Positions 23,301-59,252 of a DNA stretch of 64,000 nucleotides are shown piece by piece. The notes under the pieces were generated by a model. That model saw only the letters and a program-made list of their open reading frames with translations, did not search any database and was not told where the DNA came from. Both the position numbers and the translations under genes were made by a program. The first letter of the stretch is position 1. The number at the start of each line of letters is the position of its first letter. Source of the DNA: Periplaneta americana (lineage: Eukaryota > Arthropoda > Insecta > Blattodea > Blattidae); contig NC_091122.1 of the NCBI RefSeq assembly GCF_040183065.1, positions 155,580,455 through 155,644,454 of the forward strand. Reading direction: 5' to 3'.

Positions 23301-23405
23301 TTATCTAGGCTTCTCTCCATGAACAAAATTCAGTAAGTGATCCAAATCTAAATTTTTAAGTTGCTGCAGTGCATGAATATTGTCTGGTCGAATTCTCTTC
23401 TCAGC
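23301..23405 (-). CDS. NPAT: NPAT-like exon F (last coding exon)
   Basis: Acceptor 'ttgttacag' precedes 23,405, and the 34 codons end at TAA (23,301-23,303). The peptide starts [20 protein letters not shown] and continues to a short hydrophobic '[13 protein letters not shown]' end. It resembles the conserved terminal peptide of NPAT, which in vertebrates ends in an acidic/hydrophobic DVDKFL-type block (from memory). The exon enters in phase 0, matching exon E. Confidence 0.85.
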   Translation of the reverse strand, partial: AEKRIRPDNIHALQQLKNLDLDHLLNFVHGEKPR

Positions 23406-25271: not shown

Positions 25272-25306
<35 letters not shown>

Positions 25307-26504
25307 GGGAAGAGGAGGAGGAGGAAGAAGAAGAAGAATATTGATAATGATTGTATGTGAAAGTGAACTTTTTGGAAACCCAACAACTACAGACCTGTGC
25401 TTCTACTTGAAAGACTTCATGTATCGCTTACCATCAGTAGCTCATGGCCAGATACGAATATTGTAATAATTGGAGTTGTGATCATAATGTATAGCACATG
25501 TATTTTGTGAAACCATGGGTACTTTCACCTACCATATCCAATGGAATGCACTGAAATTAAATACCGAATGATGTTTTTGTGACTGTACGTACAACTGCTG
25601 CAGCGACGTCAGGTAGCCAGCAGACAGCTACGGGGCAGCGAGAGAGCACTAGGGAACCCAGCCGCCTAGATAAGTTGCGCGGACAATAGCTGAAATGTGC
25701 AATGAAATCCCTGTTCAATTCACCTGTATTCCCATGTCTTCAGAAGACGCTTTTCTCTTCTTTGGAGGAAGAGTTCTGCCACTGGAAGATGATGAAAGAT
25801 TTGCTTCTTTTTGAGCTGATTTTTCTTGAAGCTTCCCAGTTTCCTGCACTGGTTGTTCTTCAAGCAATCTGTAGGTTTAAACAATGTCACATAATAATGC
25901 ACTACAAAATTGTAAGTTTCAATCATATGAGTTATTTTCAAAAGCCTCCAAACACAATCAACTTAGCTCTTTCTCCACATGGATTCTATTTTCTGCTGAA
26001 AGTTGACTCTATCAGTATGGTAGCAAATATGACAATCTCATAAAATGTATTTGTTAACATAAGAAATGTTATCCTTCTTGATAATAATTAAAATAAAATG
26101 TGGTGATAACATTTGAATCGCTTCATAAAGAAAGGGCATCAGTCCAGTTTAGCTAACAAGGAGAGGACACGCTCTGTATATCACTGAATTAAATAAGATT
26201 CTGTAAGATGAAAGTACAAGACGTACTGTTTAAAGTCATACCTGGTATGGGTGGCCAATGACCACTCGTTTTGGAAATATTGGCTATTGTTTGTGACGTA
26301 CTTCCGTTAGGTGCCTAATAGGAAAGCATTAGACTGTGTAACAGCGTAGCTCATATGGTTGGATGCTGAGTTGTTATCCAGGCAACCCCTGTTCGAATCC
26401 TAATGCCTTCTCATTTTTTTTAAACTTGATATTATTTTTTTTTTCATTTATTTATTTATTGTCGCTTTAACTTATAACAAAAGTCATATCGCGACTCAAA
26501 TTAA

Positions 26505-26549
<45 letters not shown>

Positions 26550-29500: not shown

Positions 29501-29782
29501 GGTTTGTTGTGTAACATTGACGGTTTGGGTGTAATTTCATTGGAACAAAGTGTGTGATAAAAAGACATGATAACTGTGTGTTCAGTGACCGCAGAAGTCA
29601 AAAGCAAGACTAGAGTGGGAAGGAGGAAATGCACAGCCACAAATGTCCCTCTGTGATGCGTCAGCTTACTGAACCTTACATATAATGCAATTTTACGATT
29701 CAATCGCTACTGTTATATGAATATGTGTTGCAAAGGTGCCAATGTTTGTGGAAATAAAATTACTTGCAGTACATTCTGCTTC

Positions 29783-29837
<55 letters not shown>

Positions 29838-30067: not shown

Positions 30068-30105
<38 letters not shown>

Positions 30106-30836: not shown

Positions 30837-33800
30837 TTCAAATTCTAAGTTCGTGCATTTGCCTAATTCAACATAAAGTATAGGACACGAATAACTCACC
30901 TATTACAATCTAAAGTTTGGTCTGATGATGCACCAGGAAGACTTAAATTATCTTTTATAACAGGAGGTGTATCTTCGCCTGAGTTCTCAACTCTACTGCT
31001 TCCCACTAAGGCATACGTCATCAGATCGTCATCAGATGGGACTAGAGGGAATGAAGACATTTCATATTAGCTTATAATCATGTAAATTGAAATAGAAATA
31101 CAAATTAAATTCCTAAGGCTATTAAATCTATTAAAGGAAAGAAACTTTTGGAATTGCTACTTATCAAAAAGAGTTATTACGAAATTAAATCATACACTAA
31201 CCCCTCAATCTGTGTCGACGTATCCATACACGTCTCACTCTGATGCAGATCCATTGTGATCTGATGTACATGAGTATGTTCTATGCACAGTCTAGTTTAT
31301 TGTAGGGGATTTATGGTAAATACCGCCTGGGAGCAGGGCATGGAACATTTAAATTAATGGCTTGAGGGGAAATCACAGTCTAGTAAATACAGTCACGAAG
31401 CTCAATACGTAGTAAATATGCATCCATAGATAGTTGCTAATGACTAGGATCGCTAATATCACCTCATTACAGACAATGTGAAATAGCACCGGCACAGTCT
31501 ATTGTTCCTACCACCCTCACAACTCGAGCTTCGTGACTGTGTATTCTAGACTGTGGGATAATTATAACACAGCACTAATATCACAGTCTAGAATATAGAG
31601 ACACGAAGCTTAATTCGTAGTAAATATGTAGCTACATATAGTTGCTAACCACTAGGATCGCTGCTATCGCCTCATTACAGATAATGCAAAATAGTACCTG
31701 CACAGTCTATTGTTCCTAGCACCCCCATAAACACGAGCTTCGTCATTGTATAACTAGACTGTGCTAATACCAAGAAGGAATCACTCACTTTTATCGAAAT
31801 GGATTGGACTGTTTACATTGGACAATATCTAGAACAAATATTTGTATATTAATAGTGTTCAAGAATTTTAGTCCTGAACCTCCAAAACAAAGGATTTAAT
31901 TCCTAGGATTATGACGAACCATACGAGTTATTTTCAAAAGCCTCTAAACACAATCAACTTAGCTCTTTCTCCACATGGATTCTATTTTCTGCTGAAAGTT
32001 GAGTCTTTCAGTATGGTAGCAAATATGGGAGGTTTACGAAGAAGTGCACTGCTTGGCTGAGAATGGGTCAACGAGAAGAGCAAATATTATAGCCACCAAT
32101 CACCGGAATCAAAAAAGCCTCATTCTTGACCCCACTGTCCATTTTGAGAAGGATGATCAACAAGCCAATAACGTTAACGATGAAAAGAAGTCTATTTACA
32201 ACCCATGTATTCCTCACTTCAGCGAGAGATACAAAATGAATATTAATACAGGGAAGTGAAAGGACTTCTTTTTGGCACCAGGGGAACTTCATTTAAGTTA
32301 ACCAAAACCATTCTCCTTTCTCTTAAATTTTCTAATGAGGACATTAACAAAATTTGTCTAATGGTATTGAGAGATTCATTATCCATTTTACACAATCACT
32401 TGTATAATACTATGTAATTTTTTTAAATTATTTATTTATTTATTTATTTTTTTACTTCATTTCATTACTCTTCAATGTATTTTCATCTCATGTTTCTCCG
32501 AAATCAAATTGTACTTTATTTTTAAATTTATCATTGTTCCGTATTCTCTCCACAATCATATTGTATTTTTAATTTAACCTCTGCTTTGTATTCTGGATTC
32601 TAGTGGTCAGCCGTAGATGTCGGCCAGATGTCCCAAATTGTGGAATTTGTGTATGTATTTGCTAACATAAGAAATGTTATCCTTCCTGATAATAATTAAA
32701 ATAAAATGTGGTGATAACATTTTAAATACAATAGCTCTTTTCGAGTTGGAAGAGGTAAATCAGTGCTTCCTGCAATTTCGTTTTATTGCTATCAATCTCT
32801 TGTTTGTTACCCACTGTATAAATTTATTATATTTTCGAGTTGGAAAATGAAGAAGAGAGAAATACAGTAGAATTTCGATTATCTGAGGTCCTGTGTTATC
32901 TGAGCTCGATCCAAAAAAAAAAAAAGGGGGGGGGAGGAAGAAAAAGAAAGTGTGCCCAGTTGAAGGAAATAAATTTGTAATGGATAAGTTTAGACAAGAA
33001 TTATAAAAAAGGAGAAGAGAGAAATACAGTAGTGTCTTGATTAGCCGAGGTTTCGTGTTATCTGAGCCTGATAATAAAATAAAATAATAATAAAAAAAAA
33101 AACCTGTAAAAATGGTCGTGTTTCCATCAGCGTTAAAAGATACAACTGTTTCATGACTCAAGTCTCACCGCTCTTATCGAACTGGTATCAGACTGAATGC
33201 GCAATGCAATGATCCATTTGTTTTGCAGCTCGCGGCTGTATTTTTAAATGTCTGGAGTTATATTAACCTGATTTGTTCATTTTATTTATGTCCGGTTTCT
33301 GGAAAGATAGTTAACTCTACATACAGAGTTATCTACGATTTAACGTGCTGATATCTATACTAATAATAAATCTGAAGCCGAAATTTTTCTGGTAATTTTC
33401 GATTTTCCAAAAATAATTGGTCCTAACATATATAATTAACCGCCCTGAAACCGAAAATCGCTTTTTTGAAATTTTTGTTTGTATGTCTGTCTGTCTGTCT
33501 GTCTGTCTGTATGTTTGTTACCTTTTCACGCGATAATGGATAAATGGATTTCGATGAAAATTGGAATATAAATTATGTTCGTTGTAACTTATATTTTAGG
33601 CTATATGGCATTCAAAATAGATTATTTAAAAGGGGGGGTTATAAGGGGGCCTGAATTAAATAAATCGAAATATCTCGCTTATTATTGATTTTTGTGAAAA
33701 AAGTTACACAGTTTCTTTAAAAATAATTTGCGATAAGTTTTATTCCTTGAAAAATTTTGATGGGACTGATATTTAATGAGATAAATGAGTTTTAAAATTA

Positions 33801-36800: not shown

Positions 36801-39800
36801 ACTGATAAATCTACATTTAACTTTCCGGAAACACATGAAAGTTATCAGTACAGTTAAATTTTTAAGAACAGTTAAGTAACTGAGAGTTAACTGAGGTGTA
36901 CCAGAAACCAGGCATTAGTCTATTAAGTAAAGAGTTTGTCTATGCAAATCGAGCTTTCAGGCATAACTCCGTGTAAAGTTGATTTGAATAATTTCGGGGG
37001 GAAAATTATTCCAGGGCTGGGTATCGAACCCGGGACCTTTTGGTTAAACATACTAACTGAGCTACCCAGGAACTCCACCAGACACCAATCCAAATTTTCC
37101 TTCTATAACCACAGACCTCAAAGTGGGTTGACAAATGTCAAGCAACCAACACTGAGTGCACACTAACTCTGTGCGACTTAAATTGCTGTTTTTCTGTTAA
37201 TGAACAGTGATGTATATTATGCAAATCGAGCTTTCAGGTATAACTCCCTGTGAAGTTGATTTTAATAATTTCAGGGGAAAAATTGTTCCGGGGCCAGGTA
37301 TCGAACCCAGTACCTTTTGGTTAAATGTGCCAACTGAGCTACCCGGGAACTCTACTGGTACATTTAACCAAGAGGTTCCGGGTTCGATACCCGGCCCAAG
37401 AATAATTTTTTCCCCAGAAATTATTCAAATCAACTTTACCTGAAAACTCGATTTGCATAATATACATCACTGTTCATTAACAGAAAAATCACAATTTAAG
37501 TCACACAGAGTTAGTGTGCACTCAATGTTGGTTCCTTGACATTTGTCAGCCCACTTTGAGGTCTGCGGATATAGAAGGAAAAATTGGATCGGTGTCTGGT
37601 AGAGTTTCTGGGTAGCTCAGTAGGTACGTTTAACCAAAAGGTCCCGGGTTCGATACCCGGCCCCGGAACAATTTTTCCCCCGAAATTATTTAAGAGTTTG
37701 TCTGATTTCTAATCAAAACAGTTTTTAGTAATCATCTGTTTCGTCCGAGTTTTTGCTTATCTTAAGTAGTCTTGATTCACATTAACTCGGATAATAGAAA
37801 TTCTACTGTACTGAGGTATGGATGGAAAGTCAAATTCTATAAAACTGGCAGTAAAAATGAATTGAATGTTGTATACTGAAATGAAACAGTTACCTGTTGA
37901 TGGCTCTTTCTGAAGCCAATCTGCTGCTGATGGTTCTTTCTGAAGCTGATCTGCTGACTTATCAGGAGTGATTCTATTCCTACTACACTCTTCATCTACC
38001 ACTTCTCCATCTTCTAATTGCTCTGTGACCATACTGTCCTCCACTTTGTCATTTTCACTCAAAATGTTTTCAGTCTGTGTTTCACATCTCTTTTCTGCTA
38101 CAACGTCAGAGTATCTTCTTCTGCCTCCATCTGATGTGGATCCCTTCTCTTCAGGAGCATGCAGAATTCTACTTTTACTAGAGTCAAACACCTCCAGTAA
38201 AGATGAAGAATTATGACTAGAATCTCTCATAGCGACATGACCTCTGTATCGTTCACCGTGATATCTATCATTACGATATCTGTCATCATGGTCCCGAAAT
38301 CTATCTCTGTCTTTTCTTCTGAATGAACTTCTGTGTGGACTGAAATTCCTTCTCCAATCTACTTCTTGATTTCTCCTGCTAACACGCGATACCAACCTTG
38401 TTCTTCTTTTCTCTTCCATGGTTTCATCATATAACAGTTGCAATGGTGAAATTGATGTTTTAGAAGATGATGACATGGGAGATATTGATCTTCTACGATC
38501 CAAAGATCGAGATCGGGATTGTCTTCTATACACAGGTGACGATGCCCATCTTCTATGAACAGGACATGGTGATCTTCGCTTATGAATATCATTTACACTA
38601 CCTCTTGCTTTGTTTACCGATGTACTTGGTCTCTGGTGGTCAGGAGATAGTGATTTTATTCTGTAACCATCAGCTTTACTATCATGTTCCAAATTTTTAT
38701 TGTGTGACTGAAATTCTCTGTACTTCCCTTTTGATATTTTATCACTTTCTACATGCCTGTCTTTTTCATGACTAATAGAAGTACTCATACTTTTGACGTC
38801 ACAAGCATTTCCTTCTTTGATATCAGAAATTGGAAATTCACAAATTACTTTCTCCAGTTTGCTTGTGTGAGCACCATTGGTGACACAATCAGGCAAATAA
38901 CAATACAATTCCTGGAAATCCGTGATTGTACACACACCAGCCTTCTCACCTCTCTCCGACTCATTATCTGATAATTCGAATTCATATGATAAAGTCGAAA
39001 TATCACCAAATGCAAAGTTATTACCTTTGGGCCCATCATCTGCATATCTTATTTCTATGCAAGTTTCATTTTCAGAAACAATTATCCGTTTGTATTCTGA
39101 GTTAGTTTGCTCTCTCAATGTATCTTCCACTGGTGGAGATGATTTCCCGACTTGTTCCTGAACATTATGTTCAACATCTGTTTCCTTTAACTTGGTTGTT
39201 ACTTTTGATGCAGATGTATCTTCCATTGGTGGAGATGAATTCCCGATTTGTTCCTGAACATTACGTTCAACATCTGTTTCCTTTAAATTGATTGTTACTT
39301 TTGATGGAGATGATTTCCCGACTTGTTCCTGAACATTACGTTCAACATCTGTTTCCTTTAAATTGATTGTTACTTTTGATGGAGATGATTTCCCGACTTG
39401 TTCCTGAACATTACGTTCAACATCTGTTTCCTTTAAATTGATTGTTACTTTTGATGGAGATGATTTCCCGACTTGTTCCTGAACATTACGTTCAACATCT
39501 GTTTCCTTTAAATTGATTGTTACTTTTGATGGAGATGATTTCCCGACTTGTTCCTGAACATTATGTTCAATATCTGTTTCTTTTAATTTGGTTGTTACTT
39601 TTGATGGAGACTTTTTCTTTTTCTTTCTCTTAGCAGGCTTTTTCTTTTCATTACGTTTTACTGGTCCTTTCAGTTTCGTAACTTTTACTCTGTTTTCATT
39701 TGGAGATTTATCTTTCTTTTCTTTTACAAGCAGTTTCCATAAAATACTCTCGGTCAGATCTATAGGAGTTTTTTTGACTTCAGAGAAATTCTTGATAGGA

Positions 39801-42800: not shown

Positions 42801-45800
42801 GCAGAGGGTTCAGCATTACCAGATACAGAGGACATTAAATCCTTACTTTCTAATGTGGACGTGTCTTGAACATTGTTTCTTTGCATAGAAAGTATATTTC
42901 TTGAATCAGACAGGTACTTATCTTCAGTATTTATTTGCATTGTTTCATTTTCAGTAGTTTTGTTATTTTTCTTACTATCAGAATCTTCAGTTTGAATAAC
43001 AAATGTTTCCACGGTTTCTTCGATATCTAGTTGACTGTTTGTTTGCGACACATGCAAGTTATCTTGAACTATTGTTCTTTTGGCAGCTTTTAGCTTTGTA
43101 GGAGATTGAATGACTTTAGAGCTACTAGCCAACGAAAGAGGAGAACCAACAGATGCACATGGGCTAGCAGGACCAATGGAATCAGCATCTGAACTTTCAG
43201 AAAGGTCAATTTCATTTATATTTGAAGTTTCTGGTATTAAAAACTTATTTGGTTCTGTATTTGTAACATGGTTTTCTGCTGAATCTATAACTATTTCACT
43301 CTTACACGTTTCCTCCAGCAGGTCAACATGCACATCATTATCCATTTCATTCAAAACACTTCTTCTCTTTAGTTTACCTTCATTAGGATTTCCTGAAGAT
43401 TTCTCCTCTGAATCTGGATGTACACATTCACTTTCATTTAGAGTCTCCATATTTCTTTCATGTAATGCAGACTTTCCTTTTGCTGGGACATCAGAGTCAG
43501 CATGGATCCTTTCCTTCATGTCACTGTCCTCATTTACTTCCTGAGTGTTATCCACAGATTTGTCAACTAGTATATCTGAACTTGACGGAATTCTCTCAGA
43601 TTTTCTAGTTTCCGCCCTACATTGAACTTCATTATTTACACTGATATCTGTAATAAGACATTCTTCTATTCTTCTCGCTTCTTCCTTTGTTATCTGCGAG
43701 GCTCTTCTCCTAGGCTTTGTTGTTGTCTTTATCACCTCCTTCAAGTCACTGATCCCACTTGCTTCCTTGGGATCTTCCACAGACTTTTCAACTTCTAGAT
43801 CTGAACTTGATGGAATCTCCTCAGATTTTTTAGTTTTCGCACTAGAGTGATCTTCTTCACTTGCACCGATATCTGTAATTAGACATTCTTCTATTCGCCT
43901 CGCTTCTTCCTCTGTTACTTTTGAGAATCTTCTCCTGGGTTTTGTTGTCGTTATCACCTTCTTTTTTGTAACTTTCTCTTCGGACTGATGATTATCATCT
44001 TCTGGTGGCAACAGGTTTCCGTCATAATCGGCATTTAAAAGAGCCCGAAGATCAGCATCCCACGTTTTCTTTGTTTTAGGAAGAGATAATTTGTTTTTAG
44101 AGTCTTCTTCAATTGTGTTGGATGCTGATATATGTTCATCATCTTTATTTTCTGTAATGTTTGACATTTTGTTAGCTTCTTCTGCTATGACATCAGCCTC
44201 AGTTTCTGTAGCTGGTTCATCAAACCCAGTTTCATCGTCTACTGCATCAACATCCTCTTCATCTTCATTTATCATCTGTCCAATTCCTGTTGCTTTATCC
44301 CAATCTCCACAAAGTTGCGGAGGAGGGCTTCTTGTGGCTATTGGTGGTACCTTATTTCTATTATTCTCAGTATCTGCACTGGACAAACCAGTGACAGATG
44401 TTGATAAAGGTTTGTGACTTGCACTTGTGTCAGTGTTATCGGGTGACTTAAATAATGTTGACCGTATTTTCCTTATTGTTTCTGTTACTTTCTCAGATGT
44501 TTTAGGGGACTGTTTTTTACTACGTTGATGTTTTGGAGACGTATGAGATTGCCTAAAAGAATTAGTTTTGGGTGGCGTTGTGAAATCTAATGCTCTTACA
44601 TGTCGCTGTTTACGTGGCGTACTAAGACTCAACCTCTTGGAATTCACAGCTTTCCTTCCTTGAGATGTTGAAGGCTGAGGAGTGTCACGAGATTTCTGTT
44701 TTGAAGCGTTATTACTACGCTTTTCACTCACAGTTGCACACGAGATGCCGGGTTTGGGTGTATCACGAGATTTCTGTTTTGAAACATTACTAGGTTTGCT
44801 GATCACAGCTGGACTGTTAACACCAGATGTTGATGTGTGTCCACTACTAACGAGAATATTATTCTTGCTGAGGTTAACCAGATTCGTAAGATTTGGACTT
44901 GGTGGAAGTTTATCAATATTCTGCAATGACATGCTGGTAGTACTTTTGCTTTTACTTTGATCTCTTTCATCTTTATTGTGACAATCTCTGTCAATGTCAT
45001 CTGATGATTTTGATTTATTCACAGTTCTACTTGGATAGTTGTCTGGTGTTTCTTTAAGATCCAGAGCCCCCAATAGCTTTTCTCTTCCCGTTTCCTGAGT
45101 CGAAGTAACTCCATTTTCTTGTGCACTGATGGAAGACATCTTTGTCTGTGGTGACTCCACGATAATACTGGGAAGACTATGACCAGAACCTGTTGGATAC
45201 TGCTGCTCTGTGTTTGGACATGATACTTCGATATCATTACTATCATCAGCATACAAAGTAATACCCATTACAGTACTTGAGTTAAGAACTCTGCCCCTTT
45301 TTTGAGATCGTGTCTGTATTTCTGTCTTATCCTTAACATTCATCTTTCCACTAGCAGAGCTTAACTTGTTGCATTTCATTGATGATTTGGTTTGTCTGAG
45401 TTTTCCTTTAGGTATGCTGTCATCGATGTTTGGCAGACCGGGCTGACATCTTTCTGTAATACAAAATGTGACAAATCTAATGAGCGACTGCCTTATATTC
45501 ATCTTAAAATCTAGATGAGGCAATAAAATCTTACAGCACATAAAAGCAAGAAGGAATCGAACCGGGCCACCTGGTTTCGCGGCCAGACGCGCTAACCATT
45601 ACTCCACAGGTGTGGATTCCATAGTTATAACACTAATTAAAATGGTAAAAGCTTATATGGATCACTTACACTTCAGCAACTTTCTGGAAACATGTTTTAT
45701 GAAACTGTTTCATTTTTCAAACATAAATAACACCCATAAATTGTAATTTACAAACAATCCACAGAAGGATAACTGCCACTTATGGTTATAACAGTGAGGG

Positions 45801-48800
45801 AGACAATATCATCACATATATGCAGGGGCGGCTCGTCCATAAGAACTGCGGAGCTGCAGCACTCCCTGCTTTGACAGGAAAATAAAAATAGTATTTATTT
45901 TAATTTGTAGAAGAATTGTTACAGCTTTTATTGGTAAATTGCTTTATATTTCATCTGGCCGAGAATATATACTATTATCTTATGCATAATCTTTTTGCGT
46001 GTCGACTGTACTGGAATTGACACTGCATTCAAAGTCGTCCTGGGATCTGCAGGGTGGGACAGCTCATAGAGTGTGTCTTGCATGGTCAGGGGGTAGAGAG
46101 GTGAAGGGAGGCAGAGGGAAACTGCCGCTGTTTAAAACCTATATTTCGCTGCAGTGGCTTGCAGAGCCAGGCCAAAGGGAAGATTCTTTCCTCCACTCCC
46201 ATACCTCTATTGTAATGCTGCATCAAATGGATTCTCTATTCCCTTGAAACTTAATGACAAAATTTTTATTTTCTCTTCACATACTTACTATTGTAGAATC
46301 TTATCGAGTTAATATAACGAAATTAATATTCTCTTTTGCCTTATTATTACGTATATATCCAGCCTCCAGCAGAACCTAATATTTGCCTTAACTCATAATG
46401 ATTGCACGAGTAGAATCCTTTTGATATAGCATGTAGAATACGAAAGAGACTTCTTTTCCAGTTTTAGAAAATTGTTGACCATCAGTATATTTGAGTGTTG
46501 CTTTGGTATAACGTCTTAGTACCGTAACTTAACCAGTGCAAATGTGCAAGCATTAGTGTGTGTGAATTATAGAATATTAATTTTATTTTTCTCAACTTTC
46601 CCTTGCGGAGAAGATTGATGTAATGAAGTGAAATTAAAGGCTTGTCCGTTACCCGACTTAAATCTTACTCAAGCTTCATCCAGCCGAAATAGTGCATATA
46701 ATATGTAAGGAAGTATAACAATGAAATTTATGCTAAGCATTTGTGGTAACGTGGATGTGAAAAAAAAATTCTGTATTTTGTTTTCCTTGACTCCTCTTCG
46801 GGGTGATGCTGGATGGACTAGGAGTGGTGTGACAGATTTAGGACATTTGCCCCTAAAAATTAAAAAGTACGAATCTTTGCAGTCTCACCTGTAAAACTGC
46901 GCAATTAAGTGAAGCGAACAGAACAAACATCCTCGAACATAATCAAGAAGTGAGAAAAAATCGTGAAATTATTAAAAAAAAAAAAATTAATTGTATCACA
47001 TTTTGTGACCAATATTAACTTCGCCATAGGGGACATGATGAAAAAACGATTCGAAGAACCCTGGTGTATTTCGTGGGTTGCTACAGTTCGTAAGTAATCA
47101 GAACAAGCCTCTCAAAAATCATATGGAACATGCTACTGTTTAAAGGTAATTCTAAAACAATTCAGAATGAACTGCTAGATTGCATGTTGAGTGTCTGCCG
47201 ATCTGAAATTCAGACTGAAATCGATGGTATTAGTTTTGCTTTGTTTTGTTTTTTTTTTTTTAAGTGATTATGGCAAATGATGCCACAGACATCTCCCAAC
47301 TAAGTCAGAAAGTTTTGGTTTTTCGATATGTAGTGCATTTATTTTTGTCCTATACTGTGATGTTATGTGAGGTTTTGTGTCCTCACAACTAGATAGCACC
47401 TTCTGTATCGTTTACTATGCATTTCTGCTAGATGGCGGTTTCCATTTTTGTTTGGTGTGCATACCCGCCAGGTGGCATATTTGTGTTTGCCCTACCGGGT
47501 CCGAGATTAACTATCCTTAGCTTAGTTTTGAGACGAGCGATGTGATTCGCCGGTTTAAATGTTAACGGATTGTTCTTGTCTTGCCTGCCGAGCTTGCTGA
47601 TTGAAGTGAGTTGACTGCAGTACACGCGAGAGGAGAATCGACCACAGGACGTGTAGTTGGAGAGTAGCATTGCTACAGTGAACTTTGAGTCTGGAGACAT
47701 CTACACATGGGAACAGGCAGTGTGTCTGCTCAGACTAGAGTTCGTGCATTACTGAGTACACGAAGCACTTGTATTCATGAATACCAGAGTCGTCAGGTGG
47801 CTACATACCGGAACGGATTGGTGTATCCGGTTAGAGTGGAATCCTCTGGGAGTGAACCACTACATTGGAAAGAAAGCAGCAGTCTTTGTGATTGGAAATC
47901 ACATTTTCTACGGGATGGTGTACGCTGATGGTGTACTGACTACGCGGCATCGGGGATGCCGGAGTCGAGTTAACCACGGAACGTCACACACCTTTGTTAC
48001 GAGTTATTTATGGATTGTCGGCGGCGTCGAGGTATGTGCTGGTCATAGGGCGCTGGGCACGTTGGAATCATGCTGCCAGGTTGTGGACTGCTACTCAGGC
48101 TCGAGTGGTATACCTCAGGTTTTGTTATGGTGCTATGTACTCAGTTTTATGGCGGAGGTGAAAGTACGGTTACTCCCGTTAGTGCAAAAAGATATGTGTC
48201 TGGAGGATAAGTACGCATTTACAGGAAGTACGTGTTGGACTCTTATGGAGGAGTTACATAGAAGAAGAATGGTCGTCTTTCCTAGTTGTAGTGTCCGATA
48301 GATTTTTGTTAAGACCCATTAGTCACCTCCTCATTTCATTTCAGTGTAGTAATATGTATCATAGTTTTAACATTGTTAGTTTTAGTATTTCATTTAGTAT
48401 AATACATTATCATTTAGTTCTTAATGATTTATTATTTGTTATTTACTCGCTCCTATGTAACAATGAGACAACTTGGAGGTGCTTCGATAGAAGCACGATC
48501 CACGGATTTTAGGGAAATAGGACAGCACGATCCACGGATGGTGTGCGGTATAATGGCAGTTACGCCTCAGATAATAAATGACGTCACAATACTTATTAGT
48601 AATGATATCAAGAAGTGAAATTTGTATGTACCAAAATCTACTGCAGCTCCCCCCATCCACAAGTTCACGAGCCGCCACTGCATATATGGACACTTATTTC
48701 GTAGCCACAGTTGTAAAACATTAGCTTAGCTATCTGTATGAAGTACAAAAACTGAACAAACCTAAATGTCGAGGATTAGTAGAACCTGTCAAATGGGTTG

Positions 48801-51800
48801 TAACTGTTGTTGTCACAGGAGTCTCCACCATCCGAGGCACAATAGGTACAAAGCGATTACCGGAAGTTGGTAAGAGCAGACCACTTCTTGCTGAAACAAC
48901 CCAAACTTCATTACAACACTTGAGGACCGTTTTTGCAAAAGTTACTAACTGAAAAAACTAAATTTTACAGGAGACACAAAAAACTGAATGGAGACAAGTA
49001 TACTGTTTTCGCTGTAAGAAAAATCCTAATGTAAACATAAGCACGTGGCTGTCATACCCGTGATTGGCTCCCAGTCGAAACACTCACATGGCGCAGGAAA
49101 ATATAGTTTGTATTTGGAAACCATAATCTTGTATTATTTGAAAATAAAAAATTGAATTCTAGTTGTTAAATACGATGAAACATTTAACTTCACTCATATG
49201 TAAAACGCTATGTAAAAGAAAAGCTACTTTTATATTTTGTTATGTACTATGAATGCAGATGAATACCAACAGTAATACAGAGATAGTCTGTTTTTGTAAC
49301 AAGCTGGCATCACTTGAGCTCGTAGTTGTTCACGTAAGCATGTGGTACTGAAGTATGGCTTCTGCATCCTCAACTGTCCATTGTGAAGACATAAGACTTA
49401 AAAATAATTTAATTACATTAATTATAAAGTAAATGTTTCCTAAGCAAACAAATGCATAGTAGTGAGGTTACGCCTACTTGACAAGTAACGGGAAATGTTT
49501 AACATGAAACAGAATGTACAACAGTAAGCGGGAACACGTACTGAGAATCTATGGCACCAAACAGCGGCCAATGAAGCCTCACTTAGTCACGTGCTATTGT
49601 TTACATTAGGATTTTTCTTACAGCGAAAAGATTATAGGTTATAGGTGCAACGATCACACTTTGACACACTACAATGAAGAGAAATAATTCAATTTTATTA
49701 GAGGCCTGTCTTATGTTAACGAATCCACCAAGATCTCAATTTTGCAAATTTTGCAGTTAGCAAGTTTTACAAAAACAGTCCTCAATTGTAATGTCATAAT
49801 ACAGTATATATTTAAACTTAAAGCCTGAGTAACAATAATTAAATTGGAACAATATCTTTTCCAAGCTCGTGTTTTCAAGCTATATTGACATGCTTATCTT
49901 GCATTGTTATCTCTTTTGTTTTATCTACATTTCACTGTATAATAAACAGAAAGGGTTTTTTAAACTGCCTCTAGAATAATAACCTCCTGAGTCCTGACAC
50001 ATTTCTTTTATTTTTAAAGTTCAATATACAAATCAAGATTTCAGGTATAACTCCCTGTAAAGTTGATTTGAATAATTTCGAGGGAAAAATTGTTCCGGAG
50101 CCGGTTATCGAACCTGGGACCTTTGGTTTAACGTACCAACGCTCTACCACTGAGCTACCCGGGAACTCTAACCGACAGGGAGTTATACCTGAAATCTTGA
50201 TTTGCATAATACACGTCACTGTTCGTTAACAGAAAACCACAATTTAAGTCACACGGAGTTAGTGTGCACTCGAAGTTGGTTGCTTGACGGTTGTCAGCCC
50301 ACTTTGAGGTCTGTGGATATAGAGGGAAAAATTGGATCGGTGTCGGTTAGAGTTCCCGGGTAGCTCAGTGGTAGAGCGTTGGTACGTTAAACCAAAGGTC
50401 CCGGGTTCGATACCCGGCTCCAGAACAATTTTTCCCTCGAAATTATTCAAGTTCAGTATAATTCTACACTTCAAAAGAAAGTCACTGACATGAGGGAAAA
50501 TGCTGAAAAAATTCTGCAGGTTACAGTTGGGGCACAAATGCAGATATATTACACTATACTTCGGGTCCCTCCACATTCATCTTATATTATAATCATGTAT
50601 GAAATGTGGTATAGTATACTATACTCTCAGGACTCAGGAGGTTAAGGGATGCAATGACATACCCCCTGTCGAAAGTCTTCTAAAGTGATTCACAGAGAAT
50701 TGTAGCTCTTTGTCTCTCAAACAGCTCCTTTACAAGATATAAGGGCTGTTTTTTTTTCAACTTCCAATCAAGCCAGTAAACAGCCAATCAAGTGATAGGA
50801 GACAGGGATGCTTGGAGGTCGACTGCGCATCTCCCCCACTATAACCTCTGCCACTTTCAACGTCATTCTGCCATTTTGAGCTGAGTTGCAGGCACGTAAA
50901 CATGGTTGCTACGATTGATTATCCCGCCATGTGCAAGTTGTGTAGTGTAATTCGGTTTCTTCAAGCAGAAGGGAATAGTGCAGAGGAGTATACAGTGAAA
51001 ACTTTATAAGTGATGATGATATGCATGGAAGGTGTAGGAAATTTAAAGAAGGCCGAATTGATGTTCATGATGAAGGGGGACAAGGATGCAAGTCTGTTGC
51101 AACAGAAGACATTGTTCAACGAGTTAACCAAGTGGTACGAGAAAAACGGGTCTACCATAAGTGAGTTGTGTGTGGAATTTCCTGAAGTTTCAAGATCATC
51201 TATTTACACGATAGTAACAGAACATCTACGCTACAAAAAACTGTGCGCTCGATGGATTCCAAAGATGTTATACCTCAGGGTGAAATAGAGTTTATTACAT
51301 TGGATAATAATAATAAAAAGAAAAGATGTTGCCTGATGACCACAAAGGTCACCAAATGGTATCAGCGTTGATGTTCCTCATCCGTTATAAGGCTGAAGGT
51401 GGAAATCAATTGAGTCCACTGCAAGAATGATGATGTCATTTGGAATACATTTTGCAGGAGAAGCAATTGAAAGTTTGAAATGCTTAGCGCTCAAAGCTTA
51501 ATTGTGATTTTCCGATCATTACTGGACAACGACTATCAGTGTTAATGCCATATAACTCTGTATGTACATTCTACTGGGTGTTCATTTCAAAGTGTGTCAT
51601 GACGTCACTGTTGATGAGTCAGCGATTTGAAGCGAGTTTCAGCTTTTGTGTCAAAGAAGTTGCCTATTAATCAAGGTGTTCAATCTGAACTTGAGAACAT
51701 GTACAGTATAGTTTGAACATCGTAGCAACAGATGACGGTCTGTACGGTCTGTGTGCTACCATAACCTCTTTCGAACTGTTTTTTGCGCGGCCAAGTCATA

Positions 51801-56896: not shown

Positions 56897-56949
<53 letters not shown>

Positions 56950-59252
56950 CTCTAATAATTAGTGTACCAATCTTTGCGCCTGTAACAGTTGTGCAGCTTG
57001 ATTATTTGTTTCATTATATTTTCTGTGACGTTATCTCTGTACTAATATTGTTATTAATCTACTGCTATATCAATAATATTTTGTAAAACATTTCTACATT
57101 GTCACAGTATATAGGCGGAACAATATGTGTGGACCTATCATAATAACTCTATATCGAAGTTTTTCATGCTATTTTATCGCTAAACTGGAGAATTCCCACG
57201 GTATCTTTGAACCGTGCCATTACGTTTAGCACCAAATTTAAGTAACTACACAATCTTGCCAACATAAGAACACGATGTTGGTGTGTGGCGTCGTTGCAGG
57301 GAGAAATTTGTTTCTTTTCTCTCTCTAACTCCTTCGTTCTGAACATTACTGAGAGATAGCACCACTGTTAGCTACAAGATATATTTGCGCAAATATATTG
57401 AAGTAGATTACGTGACCTATTACGTGTCTTAGATGAGAGTCTCGAGACAAAACAGTTTTGCTATATTTATTTTTTTATTAAATGTTAAGCACAGGAACGC
57501 CATTTCGTAATTTTATTTAAGAAACAAGCCAAACAAATTATCTTTGCATCAAAAACGGATGCTCCCTGGACCAAATTATCGTATTTTATAATTGTTTGAA
57601 TGCAACAGAAGCCAGAAGTCTTGCACTTGACTAATGCAGTGAATTATTTAAGAATATAGTCGCGAATTTTACTACCACCATTTCGATTGTGTTTTGTTTG
57701 GTACGGCTCGGTACGGCCTGGTGACTAGTGGCCAGCGAGTAACGTCGACTATCGACATTGCTCTGCCGTGGGTATTATCCAGTTGTTCCTATTTTATTTA
57801 TAACTTCATGTTACTGTTTTGGTATGTTCCATTAGACGTTTGTCATAAACACAGAAAATAAAGCCTTATTTTTACCGTGTGAGCAAAACATATTTGAGTT
57901 CAAGCGAGCAATTTAACTCCAATGCAGCACTCTGATACATACCATATATTGGACATTTTGATTTGTGGATATTTCTATATACATTTTGATTTCTGGACAT
58001 TTCTGCATATTGGGCATTTTGACTAGTGACCTTATTTGATTGGATGTTTTGGTTGTGGACATTTTTGTAGTGGACTTTCTATATATTGGATTTTGTACTG
58101 TGGACGACTTGATCTGGAATGAAACATCCAGTTGATTTAATAAATTTTTGGAGCCTTTTCATTTCAAATATTTGAGACGGAACGTGACGAGATTCAGTGT
58201 TCCAAAGTGCTATCGTCCTGCAGTCAAATGTATGAATCCACCTCTGACCATGTGACATAGCCAACACCACACTCTCAGCTGCCATTTACTAGCATCTATA
58301 CTGTTCACATTTGTTCCAGTTGCCTGGCCCTGGTATAGTACCTGAGTATGCAATAATTCTAATGTTCTATTCTACTTATTCTACAGTAAAATGAAGTACT
58401 TACAACAGTCTTGCTGAGGCAAACTGATGAACTGAGGCATCATTCCATCATTTCCGCACATGATAACTGTCGACATGGACATGACATCCTGCTCAGAAAG
58501 TCCTTGATGTACTGAAGGGGTTGAAGTAACAGTATTCAATGAGCCAGGAATTGCAAAAGTCACAACTTGACCTGCACTAGTTCCACTGACTCCATGTGAT
58601 GCACTCTGCTGAAGAGACGAATGGATAGGAATGCTGCTTAGAGATCCAGCCTGACATACGGAATCAGTAGCGCTAGGTATTGTGATGGTCATCACCTGGC
58701 TAACAGCAGTACTCATGGCCGACGGCTGTGTTGCCATTACCAGCGGGGTAGACAACTGACTTTTCAGTGATGGTGAACTAAATATAAAATTGCTGCCTGT
58801 ATCGGTGCTAAGAGGTAACGATGTATTGCTGTCCATAAATGTGAGGTTACCTTCAAATAAAATAACCTCACCCTGACCGTGTTTGCTGATGTCCGTAGCT
58901 TTTATAGCATTTGTACTCTGTACAATTGTATTAGCGTCGTGTACATCTACTGTAAGAGCTAAATCCTTCTGTGAAGAGCTGACCACTGCTGAATTATCTT
59001 TATGTTTCTCTCTTGATGTCGAATCTAATCTGTCTTGAGAATTATCACTAGTACGAGAACTGTTAAAAGTCTGTGAGTTTCTTGTATTCGAGGACGAATT
59101 ACTGGTCTGTAACTGTTGATTACAGCTGGCTTCTCGGTCATTCCGTGACGTGAGCTTAGCATTAACTATGCATTCAACAGCAGCTGCGTTCTGATCCTCC
59201 AGTGAAGTACTTTCTTTCTTCTTATCCTTACTAGTACCTGTTGTTGGACTCA
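23301..59252 (-). CDS. NPAT: NPAT/Mxc-like histone-locus-body coactivator (six coding exons, 5' partial)
   Basis: Joins 58,404-59,252; 48,762-48,890; 37,894-45,453; 30,900-31,041; 25,724-25,868; 23,301-23,405. All introns are GT-AG and split codons match at every junction (phases 1,1,1,2,0), giving 2,975 residues and a TAA stop. The start lies beyond the right edge. Features: Ser/Thr-rich segments with 'TITIPS' and 'VTFAIPG' patches (residues 1-325), basic 'HVRALDF' at 610-616, a 75-residue internal duplication (~825-975), six 25-residue repeats (~2,275-2,420), an RS/RD-rich stretch (~2,610-2,720), a KKRK signal at ~2,929, and a terminal LDLDHLLNF peptide at ~2,960. NPAT/Mxc proteins are nuclear coactivators of replication-dependent histone genes. 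Their N-terminal LisH domain would be encoded upstream. The match rests on recalled C-terminal and basic motifs. The RS/RD stretch is unusual for NPAT, so another large nuclear protein remains possible. Confidence 0.7.
23449..23480 (+). mobile_element. LINE 3'-terminus fragment
   Basis: The last coding bases and tail of the LINE ('ccgggttccttaaaagcca' then 'ctaagtaagta') without the rest of the element. It lies in intron E-F, 44 bp upstream of exon F on the minus strand. Confidence 0.7.
23646..23908 (-). mobile_element. Full-length tRNA-derived SINE with 13-bp TSD
   Basis: Flanked by exact AGGGGTCGCTTCT (23,633-23,645 and 23,909-23,921). Reading on the minus strand, a tRNA-like head (box A around 'TGGAGTAATGGTCAGAGCG', box B 'GGTTCGAATCC') leads into a body with 'CAACCCAATCCGAGC' and ends in an A-rich tail of TAAAA units. 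This is the best-preserved copy in the window; others are at 4.2, 29.85 and 55.0 kb, with a head-only relative at 45.55 kb. Confidence 0.92.
23960..24081 (-). mobile_element. Short inverted LINE fragment
   Basis: On the minus strand this reads '[13 protein letters not shown]' and 'VEKFKY', the same protein segment as 24,454-24,530 on the plus strand. It is a second, oppositely oriented piece, not the 5'-inverted part of the same copy, because the segment is duplicated. Confidence 0.75.
24083..25130 (+). pseudogene. LINE ORF2 C-terminal portion, reverse transcriptase (5'-truncated)
   Basis: Best LINE copy in the window, with about 340 codons open to the stop at 25,109-25,111. Order of features: an RT palm region ('[13 protein letters not shown]'), the catalytic motif YADD at 24,305-24,316, '[13 protein letters not shown]', 'KFKYLGATV', 'LYGCETW', '[13 protein letters not shown]', and a final 'GRPRRRW...MNLRVP'. 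It is followed by 'AAAGCCAGTAAGTAATTAAG'. The frame continues upstream to a Met at 23,948, but that part comes from the inverted fragment and SINE flank, so it is not a real start. The endonuclease domain and early RT blocks are missing, so it is not autonomous. It lies in intron E-F, antisense to the host gene. Confidence 0.9.
25135..25225 (-). mobile_element. Small LINE fragment, opposite strand
   Basis: Minus-strand translation gives '[20 protein letters not shown]', the segment next to the YADD motif of the copy beside it, with a small internal deletion. It is head-on to the plus-strand copy. Confidence 0.7.
25270..25340. repeat. (ATG)n then GGA/GAA-rich simple repeat
   Basis: About eleven ATG units followed by purine-rich GAGGAG/GAAGAA. 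The translated Met-rich frame here is a by-product. Confidence 0.85.
25724..25868 (-). CDS. NPAT: NPAT-like exon E
   Basis: Acceptor 'aaacctacag' before 25,868 and donor 'ACAG|gtgaat' after 25,724. It completes a split AG|A codon from exon D, adds 48 codons and ends in phase 0. It encodes a Glu/Gln-rich, then serine-rich segment leading to [11 protein letters not shown], a monopartite nuclear localisation signal. Confidence 0.87.
25921..26114. repeat. Dispersed repeat copy 1, left part
   Basis: Matches 31,918-32,029 plus 32,645-32,720 with few changes ('gagttattttcaaaagcc', 'ggattctattttctgctg', 'ggtgataacattt'). Its right part resumes at about 27,905-28,010 ('ttttcgagttggaagagg'), so the TIR element at 26,115-27,855 sits inside this repeat. 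Nature of the repeat unknown. Confidence 0.75.
26344..26400 (+). other. tRNA-like stretch in the left inverted repeat
   Basis: 'gtagctcatatggttgg' (box A-like) is followed 35 bp later by 'gttcgaatcc' (box B). An inverted copy is in the right arm at 27,408-27,473. The stems do not form a convincing cloverleaf, so this is a tRNA-like Pol III promoter relic, not a tRNA gene. Confidence 0.5.
26505..26548. repeat. (ATT)n microsatellite
   Basis: About 14 ATT units inside the transposon interior. Confidence 0.9.
26800..27215 (+). pseudogene. DDE-type transposase remnant, C-terminal part
   Basis: The frame from 26,805 gives '[19 protein letters not shown]', '[20 protein letters not shown]' and '[11 protein letters not shown]', which I recognise from transposases of insect DNA elements with a DDE endonuclease core. 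A frame shift near 27,100 leads to a cysteine-rich tail (CDCG, CCAWC, CCYD spacing) interrupted by TAA, probably a zinc-binding end. The N-terminal two thirds are missing. It lies between the two inverted arms, so it is presumably the element's own, inactivated enzyme. The superfamily is not certain. Confidence 0.65.
28025..29785. other. No gene recognised (intron D-E of the host gene)
   Basis: AT-rich intronic sequence. A GC-richer patch at 28,145-28,260 contains a perfect 7-bp hairpin GCTCAGG-agag-CCTGAGC. No transposase or SINE head found. Confidence 0.45.
29786..29850. repeat. (ATT)n/(AAT)n microsatellite
   Basis: About 16 ATT units followed by a short AAT run next to the SINE below. Confidence 0.88.
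29850..30066 (-). mobile_element. tRNA-derived SINE, diverged copy
   Basis: Same body as 23,646-23,908 ('atgagtccagggtccagtgc', 'aaacctcaaccagataactt', box B as 'caggatttgaacctgggcc'). The tRNA head is largely lost. It is flanked by simple repeats on both sides, so a TSD cannot be read. Confidence 0.78.
30069..30107. repeat. (TAA)n microsatellite
   Basis: About 12 TAA units, followed by a CTT run to 30,127. Confidence 0.88.
30145..30776 (-). pseudogene. Decayed LINE ORF2, second family
   Basis: On the minus strand from 30,776: '[11 protein letters not shown]', then after several frame breaks '[21 protein letters not shown]', '[10 protein letters not shown]', '[12 protein letters not shown]'. 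These are the reverse-transcriptase C-terminal blocks of a non-LTR element different from the main LINE in this window. It is heavily degraded and 5'-truncated. The 96-codon frame at 30,155-30,445 is only its best-preserved part. Confidence 0.78.
30777..30834. repeat. (TAA)n microsatellite
   Basis: About 18 units. It produces Asn- and Tyr-runs in both strands' frames, which are not genes. Confidence 0.92.
30900..31041 (-). CDS. NPAT: NPAT-like exon D
   Basis: Acceptor 'ttccctctag' before 31,041 and donor 'AATAG|gtgagt' after 30,900. The leading TC completes a G|TC valine codon with exon C. There are then 46 codons, starting [17 protein letters not shown], and a trailing AG. It is an acidic, disordered segment without a known domain. 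Confidence 0.87.
31374..31555. mobile_element. MITE, 182 bp (same family as 19.1 kb)
   Basis: Termini CACAGTCTAGTAAATACAG and ...TATTCTAGACTGTG form ~29-bp inverted repeats. Flanks gggaaat/ggataat are an imperfect duplication. Confidence 0.88.
31582..31763. mobile_element. MITE, 182 bp (same family)
   Basis: Same termini and interior as the copy 26 bp to its left and in the same orientation. Flanks CTAATAT/CTAATAC give a 7-bp duplication with one change. Confidence 0.88.
31918..32029. repeat. Dispersed repeat copy 2 (left part)
   Basis: Matches 25,921-26,035. The match resumes at 32,645 after an unrelated 615-bp insert and runs on to about 32,830 (equivalent of 27,905-28,015). Copy 1 lacks this insert and copy 2 lacks the 26.1-kb transposon. 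Confidence 0.75.
32030..32645 (+). pseudogene. LINE fragment, restriction-like endonuclease end (R2/CRE-like), broken
   Basis: The 71-codon frame at 32,044-32,259 reads '[13 protein letters not shown]...ILDPTVHFE' and '[19 protein letters not shown]'. It resembles the C-terminal endonuclease region of site-directed LINEs, where 'DPTV' follows the R(R)xDI segment (from memory). Stops follow immediately, and about 350 bp of T-rich 3' sequence ends at the resumed host repeat. Confidence 0.5.
33354..34653 (+). mobile_element. Non-autonomous Helitron 1 (1,300 bp)
   Basis: Begins A|TCTATACTAATAATAAATC and ends GGCTAG|T, the Helitron rule (5' TC, 3' CTRR, insertion between A and T, no target duplication). 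A GTGC-8nt-GCAC hairpin lies just upstream of the CTAG end. It contains a (GTCT)n run at ~33,484-33,511 and a long (TAATA)n run, as is usual for DINE/Helentron-type elements. No Rep/helicase frame. Confidence 0.75.
34042..34215. repeat. (TATAA)n microsatellite, ~34 units
   Basis: Nearly perfect 5-bp repeat of about 170 bp inside Helitron 1. Confidence 0.97.
34864..36138 (+). mobile_element. Non-autonomous Helitron 2 (1,275 bp)
   Basis: Begins A|TCTATATATATAATTTGAA and ends GCCACTAG|T, with a TGCAG-tatttg-CTGCA hairpin 12 nt before the end. The interior includes 'ggaaaacggctgaacggatt', often seen near the 5' end of insect Helitrons (recall). Different sequence family from Helitron 1, same orientation, 210 bp away. 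Confidence 0.72.
36938..37695. repeat. Composite of tRNA-like SINE units in inverted and tandem order
   Basis: tRNA-like minus-strand segments lie around 37,020-37,075 and 37,295-37,352, and plus-strand segments around 37,360-37,405 and 37,612-37,667. Each has 'GGTTCGATACCCGG' or its complement and is followed by the body 'aatttttcc..gaaattatt'. The plus copy at 37,612 lacks about 11 bp in the D-arm region. Related to the pair at 50.0-50.45 kb. Not functional tRNA genes. Confidence 0.8.
37894..45453 (-). CDS. NPAT: NPAT-like exon C (7.56-kb exon)
   Basis: Acceptor 'ttgtattacag' before 45,453 and donor 'CAACAG|gtaact' after 37,894. About 2,519 whole codons are open. Only this part of the longer open frame is exon: the residues upstream to the Met at 45,541 and downstream to 37,757 are intron read-through. 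The segment is Ser/Thr/Glu/Lys-rich and largely disordered. It contains the basic HVRALDF block, the TTKPRRR duplication, six 25-residue repeats, and a basic RS/RD stretch with '[14 protein letters not shown]' and '[15 protein letters not shown]'. Large single exons like this are common in disordered nuclear scaffold genes. Confidence 0.93.
39165..39612 (-). repeat. 75-bp coding minisatellite, six copies
   Basis: In-frame tandem repeat encoding '[20 protein letters not shown]' plus EQVGK. The landmark 'gatttcccg' falls at 39,312, 39,387, 39,462 and 39,537, exactly 75 bp apart. The four central copies are almost identical at DNA level, while the outer copies are diverged and one carries a short extra segment. 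Confidence 0.95.
43508..43957 (-). repeat. 225-bp internal coding duplication
   Basis: Two adjacent copies, each encoding 'TTKPRRR.S..T.EEARRIE' then ECLITDI, are offset by exactly 225 bp (tctcctggg at 43,931 and tctcctagg at 43,706). They are more diverged than the 75-bp repeats, so the duplication is older. Confidence 0.88.
45553..45615 (-). mobile_element. SINE tRNA-like head, solitary
   Basis: The minus strand reads 'GTGGAGTAATGGTTAGCGCG' and then, 27 bp on, 'CCCGGTTCGATTCC'. It is the head of the SINE at 23.6 kb without its body, 100 bp upstream of exon C on the transcribed strand. Confidence 0.65.
46750..47350 (+). pseudogene. hAT transposase remnant (ZMYM1/TTF-type)
   Basis: Pieces in shifting frames resemble this transposase class: '[19 protein letters not shown]' (TTF-type zinc-finger segment) near 46,800, '[11 protein letters not shown]' near 47,030, '[19 protein letters not shown]' near 47,150, and a broken '[20 protein letters not shown]' equivalent near 47,270-47,330. 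The last matches the first catalytic aspartate region of ZMYM1-like transposases. Stops and frame shifts make it inactive, and the C-terminal half is absent. Confidence 0.72.
47363..48462 (+). mobile_element. Unclassified GC-richer insert, possible solo LTR
   Basis: Starts TGTTATGTGAGG and ends CTATGTAACA, the TG...CA form with an inverted TGTTA/TAACA, and is about 1.1 kb long. It interrupts the hAT element just after the transposase remnant. No clear target duplication (gtga/atga). A 174-codon open frame at 47,777-48,301 has no recognisable motif. If an LTR, it is solitary; the reading is weak. Confidence 0.35.
48762..48890 (-). CDS. NPAT: NPAT-like exon B
   Basis: Acceptor 'gggttgtttcag' before 48,890 and donor 'TTTAG|gtttgt' after 48,762. 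It begins CA, completing T|CA from exon A, has 42 codons, and ends with G for G|AA at exon C. The peptide contains '[20 protein letters not shown]' followed by a threonine-rich run. An upstream alternative acceptor also keeps the frame open, so the exon's 5' boundary could be about 60 bp longer. Confidence 0.85.
49006..49629. mobile_element. MITE with ~42-bp inverted termini, 624 bp
   Basis: TTTTCGCTGTAAGAAAAATC at the left, with the same sequence inverted at the right end; the match continues through 'CTAATGTAAAC' and 'AGCACGTG'. No target duplication could be read. Lies in intron A-B, 116 bp upstream of exon B. Confidence 0.85.
49983..50641. mobile_element. TIR element (TTAA-type), hosting a SINE pair
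   Basis: CCTCCTGAGTCCTGA and its inverse TCAGGACTCAGGAGG are perfect terminal repeats. Flanks are ATAA (left) and TTAA (right), consistent with a mutated TTAA target. The interior is largely the SINE inverted pair at 50,037-50,455. Confidence 0.7.
50037..50455. mobile_element. Inverted pair of tRNA-like SINEs
   Basis: Left unit on the minus strand (head at 50,100-50,172) and right unit on the plus strand (head at 50,350-50,425). Each head has box A 'TAGCTCAGTGGTAGAGCG', an anticodon arm TTGGT-ACGTTAA-ACCAA (GTT at the anticodon position) and T-arm CCGGGTTCGATACCCGG. Position 33 is C, not the universal T, and the right copy's acceptor stem pairs poorly, so these are tRNA-derived, not tRNA-Asn genes. 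Confidence 0.82.
50904..51300 (+). pseudogene. mariner-family transposase fragment, N-terminal
   Basis: Scattered frames give '[15 protein letters not shown]', '[19 protein letters not shown]' and '[20 protein letters not shown]', the paired helix-turn-helix DNA-binding part of mariner transposases. The catalytic half is missing and there are stops and small deletions. Inactive. Confidence 0.85.
51405..52262. repeat. Inverted repeat pair enclosing the TA MITE
   Basis: 'gagtccactgcaagaatgat' at 51,412 recurs inverted at 52,230-52,256. Possibly the ends of an older element into which the MITE inserted; its own boundaries cannot be fixed. Confidence 0.55.
51574..52178. mobile_element. MITE of Tc1/mariner type, 605 bp, TA target
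   Basis: CTGGGTGTTCATTTCAAAGT at the left and its near-inverse at the right (ends ...GAACACCCAG), ~28-bp inverted repeats with single changes. Flanked by TA on both sides. No transposase. It sits between the two arms of an older inverted repeat (51,405-51,441 and 52,225-52,262). Confidence 0.9.
52263..54902. other. No gene recognised (intron A-B)
   Basis: AT-rich sequence with a C-run at ~52,301-52,311. No splice-bounded frame, transposase or SINE head found. Confidence 0.45.
54903..55418. mobile_element. Foldback (palindromic MITE), ~125-bp arms
   Basis: The arms (54,903 to ~55,275 without the SINE; and ~55,292-55,418) are inverted copies at roughly 90% identity by eye. Shared blocks include 'caataactgtcttattaa', 'ttacattaggtcattacaca' and 'caattaatgg.atcttcagg'. 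The left arm is interrupted by the SINE at 55,006-55,228. No coding frame. Confidence 0.85.
55006..55228 (-). mobile_element. tRNA-derived SINE with 13-bp TSD, 5'-truncated
   Basis: Same family as 23,646-23,908, flanked by GCCAATTAATGGT (54,993-55,005 and 55,229-55,241). The A-rich tail is at the low-coordinate end and the tRNA head is truncated before box A. The right arm of the foldback carries the unoccupied version of the target. Confidence 0.92.
55662..56279. mobile_element. Decayed TIR element with transposase N-terminus
   Basis: Imperfect inverted ends around 'ggaaggcggtcagctgcta' (left) and 'tagcagactaccgccttcc' (right). Inside, the frame at 55,861-56,080 reads '[20 protein letters not shown]' and later '[11 protein letters not shown]', resembling the helix-turn-helix start of an insect DDE transposase. 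The rest of the enzyme is absent. Superfamily uncertain. Confidence 0.55.
56280..57944. other. No gene recognised; contains (TAA)n at 56,897-56,949
   Basis: Apart from the TAA microsatellite and a C-run at ~56,770, nothing recognised. A short stretch near 57,500-57,590 ('gatgctccctggaccaaatt') resembles the 3' part of Helitron 1 and may be a relic. Confidence 0.5.
57945..58100. repeat. Degenerate ~25-35-bp minisatellite
   Basis: Repeated 'tggacattttgatttgtgga'-like units with drift (ggacatttctgcat, ggacatttttgtag). No coding meaning seen. Confidence 0.6.
58404..59252 (-). CDS. NPAT: NPAT-like exon A (first exon in the window)
   Basis: Acceptor 'cctacttgcag' before 59,252 and donor 'TGTT|gtaagt' after 58,404. 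The leading TG belongs to a codon begun in an upstream exon, so the Met at 59,271 is intronic read-through and not a start. The 282 codons are Ser/Thr/Gln-rich, with '[14 protein letters not shown]' and '[12 protein letters not shown]' patches like those of NPAT's central region (recall). It ends in phase 1 with T, completed by exon B. Confidence 0.88.

Follow-up and report, generated by a model that had tools for sequence, protein, structure and literature searches.

A very probable NPAT/Mxc orthologue with a giant exon in the American cockroach, and a candidate second family member

Introduction

NPAT is a large protein that gathers histone genes and switches them on. According to published work on NPAT and Mxc, these proteins combine N-terminal self-association, condensation regulated by cyclin E/CDK2, and C-terminal recruitment of SANT-domain partners (PMC9153134, PMC7432317, PMC13001340). 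Drosophila Mxc has 1,837 aa, with a LisH motif at residues 6–38 and an extreme C-terminus that is described as important (PMC9153134). For human NPAT, the C-terminus is given as 1412-AGMDVDKFLLSLHY-1425, followed by D1426 and E1427 (PMC7432317), and a nuclear-localisation cluster is placed at 1368–1405 (PMC11613458).

In this work, we analyzed a 64,000-nt stretch of the Periplaneta americana genome (the window; C6:155580455–155644454 of assembly GCF_040183065.1), which carries the last part of a long minus-strand gene that starts outside it. Judged from sequence, the window segments are very probably coding exons 9–14 of the American cockroach NPAT/Mxc orthologue. The predicted protein has ~3,495 aa, compared with 1,427 residues in human NPAT (p220), and both of its ends can be recognized against human NPAT despite a more than twofold difference in length. 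It begins like human NPAT, with the shared start LPS[DE]VARLV.GYL. Toward the other end, a basic cluster is followed by the C-terminal peptide AGMDVDKFLLSLHYDE, which resembles the human helix described in PMC7432317. However, four of the 11 contact residues of this helix are dissimilar in the cockroach, and the cockroach protein ends in GEKPR, whereas the same source describes a D-E end conserved in vertebrate NPAT (PMC7432317). The likeness to Mxc lies in the N-terminal LisH motif (residues 6–38 in Mxc, from residue 5 in the cockroach) and would extend to the extreme C-terminus. Compared with the 1,837 aa of Mxc, the cockroach protein is longer, and its gene has a giant 7.6-kb exon with tandem arrays.

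Results and Discussion

Gene structure

The preliminary description of the window had proposed a six-exon NPAT/Mxc-like gene. We recovered all six minus-strand segments with their splice sites, split codons, terminal TAA, and the same outer limits. Each of the five introns between them begins with GT and ends with AG. Codons at the junctions are split as T|CA, G|AA, G|TC, and AG|A, with the last junction in phase 0, and once joined, the segments give a frame of 2,967 residues that has no stop before its final TAA. The features of this part of the gene are as follows.

58404..59252, minus strand: coding exon 9 (first segment), rich in Ser, Thr, and Gln; its acceptor, in phase G|TG, connects to exon 8 beyond the window
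48786..48890, minus strand: coding exon 10 (second segment), provisional; some exon is needed by phase, alternative ends 48762 and 48861 keep the frame too
37894..45453, minus strand: coding exon 11, 7,560 nt, the giant exon in the middle; composition of low complexity, with many CDK-type S/T-P-x-K/R sites
39118..39610, minus strand: tandem array within exon 11, coding 75-bp units, ~97% alike
43512..43963, minus strand: 225-bp duplication within exon 11, copies ~80% identical
45553..45616, minus strand: fragment of a tRNA-type SINE, shortly before the ATG at 45541; 92% identical to 23843–23907
30900..31041, minus strand: coding exon 12
25724..25868, minus strand: coding exon 13, basic cluster PPKKRK in an NLS-like position
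23301..23405, minus strand: coding exon 14, C-terminal peptide and TAA; resembles the FLASH/YARP-binding helix of NPAT

The gene does not stop at six exons. At least 14 coding exons are predicted, eight more having been found upstream of the window. For this purpose, the 200 kb to the right of the window were added (coordinates beyond 64,000 continue the window's numbering), and the gene strand of the addition was scanned without regard to phase by a combined codon and splice score, with the best 45 non-overlapping candidates listed. Eight of these lie between 59,253 and 96,746, and six became exons (93911–93769, 91787–91616, 87608–87236, 81537–81402, 79465–79250, and 76264–76019). The candidate at 89650–89466, which reads as reverse transcriptase, and the one at 77009–76943, with a score of 8.4, were dropped. 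In the final model, the acceptor of exon 7 was shifted from 79465 to 79547, and the upstream exons are as follows.

96746–96704, minus strand: exon 1
96562–96392, minus strand: exon 2
93911–93769, minus strand: exon 3
91787–91616, minus strand: exon 4
87608–87236, minus strand: exon 5
81537–81402, minus strand: exon 6
79547–79250, minus strand: exon 7
76264–76019, minus strand: exon 8

A LisH exon had been predicted to the right of 64 kb, and it is there, split over exons 1 and 2 by an intron (MESFLPSEVARLVY|G in exon 1 and GYLESAKCNDAARNFLEKSPHL... in exon 2) and heading a phase-consistent chain into the window. Our first LisH patterns had no match because this intron interrupts the motif. 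The exon 2 half (GYLESAKCNDAARNFLEKSPHLSECL...) was picked by eye among the open frames, and exon 1 was found by scanning fitting donors over 167 kb, to 263.9 kb, against the human motif. The chosen exon 1, with its LPSEVARLVYG start, has a motif score of 26 compared with 13 for the next donor (26.2 versus 10.9 combined). The whole gene model comprises 14 exons, encodes 3,495 aa, and spans 73,446 bp from ATG to stop.

Junctions 3–4, 4–5, 5–6, 7–8, and 8–9 all agree in phase, for which the expectation is 1/243 if phases are random; these five join ends that were found blind to phase or had been fixed beforehand in the preliminary description. Phase or frame was in view when junctions 1–2, 2–3, and 6–7 and the five within the window were chosen, and of the latter five, junction 11–12 is backed by a phase-blind scan.

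The largest open frame, of 2,594 codons, had been said to misrepresent both ends of the protein, and our results agree, with intron sequence entered at each end. The frame has its ATG at 45541 and stays open upstream into the SINE fragment at 45553–45616, which supports an intronic origin of its start. The related copy at 23843–23907 overlaps an Rfam tRNA match at 23832–23904. The codon scores of the ATG extension and of the read-through past 37894 are intron-like, being reached by 74.3 and 73.3% of null stretches, respectively. A gene of this structure, with 14 exons over 73 kb and a largest frame that is open into intron at both ends, is easily broken by annotation that follows single frames or masks repeats.

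Support for the exon chain within the window

Codon log-odds were trained on the giant exon alone and compared with a null of 2,000 stop-free intronic stretches, with the null length limited to at most 48 codons. Segments 4 and 5 in full, and the initial 60 codons of segment 1, each scored above 2,000 of 2,000 null stretches. The score of segment 6 was reached by 3.65% of them and that of segment 2 by 8%. In a phase-free exon scan, for which a small part of the codon table came from segments 4 and 5, segment 4 was the top exon of its gap (25.0, with the next non-overlapping exon at 7.7). Exons that match its phases with a splice score of at least 8.8 occurred in two of 60 Markov sequences. When phase was ignored, one exon as good as segment 4 was found in the reversed gap, one in the complemented gap, and none on the other strand. 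The real gap offers one further exon of fitting phase, which had a similar splice score (8.3 versus 8.9) but intron-like codons.

Segment 2 (exon 10, 48890–48786) is compatible with chance and unproven by its own evidence, and we keep it as provisional. Its splice score is −1.8 (1.3 with the end at 48762), 47 of 60 Markov sequences held an exon fitting its phases at a score of at least 1.0, and three other sites in the real gap fit both phases with better splice scores of 4.1 to 5.4. Some exon is needed between exons 9 and 11, since joining 58404 directly to 45453 gives a stop. An alternative at 53780–53715 was rejected because it creates a stop. We also set aside a THAP-like start in a short ATG frame (53413–53507, minus strand) near a gtaagt donor, which had no Pfam match and intron-like codons. 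The earlier argument that five consecutive phase matches exceed chance thus stands in part: the codon scores of segments 1, 4, and 5 and the upstream exons favor it, whereas segment 2 may be a chance fit. Two of the five matches carry little weight, a loss that the upstream exons outweigh.

Identity as NPAT/Mxc

The gene is of an ordinary kind. The start of the gene model (MESFLPSEVARLVYGYL), aligned as the product of exons 1–3, scored 75 against the human NPAT start, compared with a maximum of 52 among 5,000 shuffles, and the LisH motif lies at the extreme N-terminus, from residue 5.

The C-terminal peptide of the cockroach aligns without gaps to human NPAT 1412–1427 and was the best match to it among the 1,008 C-terminal 34-mers in the window; 107 of 20,000 shuffles equaled its score. 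When all six frames were scanned, the NPAT helix was matched better by one unrelated 16-mer (28) than by the true peptide (21), so that the C-terminal match supports the assignment without deciding it. Among the 11 FLASH-contact residues given in PMC7432317, three are identical in the cockroach (D1415, L1420, and H1424) and four are conservatively replaced (M to L, V to L, F to L, and L to V); the dissimilar four are A to K, G to N, S to F, and Y to G. The short C-terminal NPAT peptide of the preliminary description has a modest match in a last exon that resembles the FLASH/YARP-binding helix printed in PMC7432317. The PPKKRK cluster of exon 13 lies 43 residues from the protein end and is a putative NLS.

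The long protein is predicted from its composition to be disordered. It has 23 CDK-type [ST]P.[KR] sites, compared with 5.9 in shuffles (0/2,000 shuffles reach 23), and with the array copies removed, 19 compared with 5.6 (0/2,000 reach 19).

The profile search that had been proposed as a check gave no NPAT_C or LisH match. Neither Pfam LisH (PF08513) nor NPAT_C (PF15712) reached its cut-off in the peptides of the gene. In the genome-wide search with PF08513, the 30 places listed include none in this gene (150 of 163 candidates scored), and the genome-wide NPAT_C search had no match in the gene but also matched in 0 of 14 control genomes, which makes it uninformative. Searches of Pfam, NCBIfam, and PDB with the window and upstream peptides returned no NPAT relative, and apart from a retroelement RVT_1, all Pfam matches were below cut-offs. 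The LisH exon also matched designer PPR proteins in PDB (best E values 3.1e-6 and 2.2e-5), but where the alignments were inspected, these matches were sums of many ~3-bit stretches, and we did not retain them. Given the absence of profile matches, the case for orthology is built on both ends of the protein, its architecture, and the chain of exons, and it is on these features that we uphold the NPAT/Mxc assignment.

A second candidate NPAT-family gene

A second, diverged candidate NPAT-family gene is present on scaffold C13, at about C13:146926961–146978776 on the minus strand, as predicted from the following similarities. A genome search with the first 476 residues of the window gene found seven places in that gene itself and C13:146978225–146978386 (54% identity). 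With the C13 LisH as query, the search returned C13, C6, and two matches at E >1, one of which is C13's own first exon. That first exon reads MESYLPSEIARLVYG, and the intron within LisH falls in the same codon as in the window gene. The LisH regions of the two genes are identical at 41 of 65 residues. Across 71 LisH codons, they differ 21 times at the first position, 18 times at the second, and 44 times at the third; this excess at third positions is a mark of selection on the protein. Blocks similar to exon 5 (TPLENLPG; E 0.003) and exon 6 (TSKRKC; E 0.022) follow in order and with unchanged phases, together with a weaker block similar to exon 3 (E 0.78). At C13, we recognized no counterpart of exon 4, of exons 7 and 8 (nothing convincing in order), or of exons 9 and 10; the score of exon 10 against C13 was not significant (39, with 30 shuffles ranging from 29 to 40).

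C13:146926961–146934922, minus strand: giant open frame of the C13 gene, 2,654 codons

In a pairwise search, this frame and exon 11 had a block of 71 aa in common (E 1.8e-5) and, weakly, a short second piece (E 0.48). Like the window gene, C13 has the same LisH intron position, exon 5/6 phases, and giant-frame blocks. In contrast, its middle holds ~23 units of ~38 aa (21 to 60 aa, mostly 36 to 40, as counted by a hand-made pattern), e.g., NMQENVTHTEPQRKLHEKCLSLTENFVKNISEKSDLAT. The frame has 14 CDK-type sites compared with 3.4 in shuffles, and 0 of 2,000 shuffles reach 14.

A C-terminal exon was not found in the 8.96 kb examined beyond the giant frame of C13, and a genome search with exons 12–14 listed only the window gene (six candidates scored). 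Against the region beyond the frame, exons 12 and 13 did no better than 30 and 54 of 60 shuffles, respectively. One C-terminal candidate with a score of 28 was rejected, as unrelated 16-mers reach 26 and no acceptor lies in the preceding bases. Another (equaled by two of 60 shuffles) runs over a poly-A stretch. In a limited literature search, we found no insect NPAT duplication, which is weak evidence of absence.

Alternative explanations

One alternative is that the junction phases were assembled by chance from transposon-rich intron sequence. Exons that fit the phases of a single gap are indeed common, as illustrated by exon 10, for which 47 of 60 simulations offered one. However, segments 1, 4, and 5 outscored every null stretch, five of the six window exons lack a repeat match in the window (the giant exon matches only its own tandem arrays), and eight further exons carry the chain on to a LisH start, all of which makes a chance assembly extremely improbable. 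Another alternative divides the model into two genes: a LisH gene upstream that stops around exon 9, and a second, unrelated one that starts near 45.5 kb and holds the giant exon. The weakly supported exon 10 is the sole bridge between exons 9 and 11. We consider this division very unlikely: C13 repeats, on one strand, the order of LisH exons, small exons, and a giant frame that has one block of homology to exon 11, and in the one separate start that was tried, where the giant frame is extended to its ATG, the codons are intron-like.

The orthology itself might be assigned to the wrong copy, if the window gene is the derived product of an NPAT duplication and the conserved NPAT job is done by the C13 gene. 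The C13 LisH scored 86 against the human sequence and that of the window gene 75, and the two differ mostly at third codon positions. Yet a recognized NPAT-like C-terminal peptide is present in the window gene only, with none in the 8.96 kb past the C13 frame; the search with exons 12–14 points to the window gene alone among the six candidates scored; and exons 4, 7, 8, 9, and 10 are unrecognized at C13. A derived status of the window gene is therefore unlikely, though less so than the other two alternatives, and we favor the window gene as the NPAT/Mxc orthologue.

Proposed function

By analogy with NPAT/Mxc biology, from which every step is inferred, the cockroach protein may serve the histone locus body as its scaffold and coactivator. 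LisH and the region that follows would self-associate and nucleate this body at histone genes, phosphorylation by cyclin E/CDK2 would tune condensation and activation at S phase, and the C-terminal peptide would recruit the SANT-domain partners FLASH and Mute/Gon4L.

We tentatively suggest, as a reading that has a minority chance of being correct, that the two genes encode a pair of NPAT-family scaffolds with a constrained LisH and separately expanded tandem units in their giant exons, which may form mixed LisH oligomers and divide the work of the histone locus body. Some of these units (the 75-bp units and the ~23 units of C13) would carry CDK-type TP/SP-x-K sites, a part of the reading that is equally tentative. 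The work may be split, for example, between core and H1 genes or between germline and soma, and array length may tune the response to CDK. If expressed, the C13 gene would provide a natural system for studying whether two proteins can share the role of a histone-locus-body scaffold and whether arrays of CDK sites set the response. It is the unforeseen part of this locus comparison, perhaps unexpected even to specialists.

Repeats and other features nearby

The 75-bp units of exon 11 are so alike (~97%) that the array is perhaps recent and its copy number variable between individuals. Outside the exons, a 9.6-kb minisatellite at 6460–16063 has 43-bp units with nested periods of 24, 67, 110, and 153 bp, and 155-aa open frames recur with it. 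At 16707–18662, a 241-bp unit is repeated about eight times (95% matches). The last intron contains a reverse-transcriptase frame antisense to the gene (23948–25111; RVT_1, E 3.3e-16), and between exons 9 and 10, there are two inverted tRNA-Asn(GTT)-like sequences at 50092–50426 (Rfam 42 and 53 bits). Outside the window, some 80 kb before the gene start, a low-complexity frame of PSSRSNSRLSISDISR repeats lies on the minus strand at 176589–177641 (continued coordinates).
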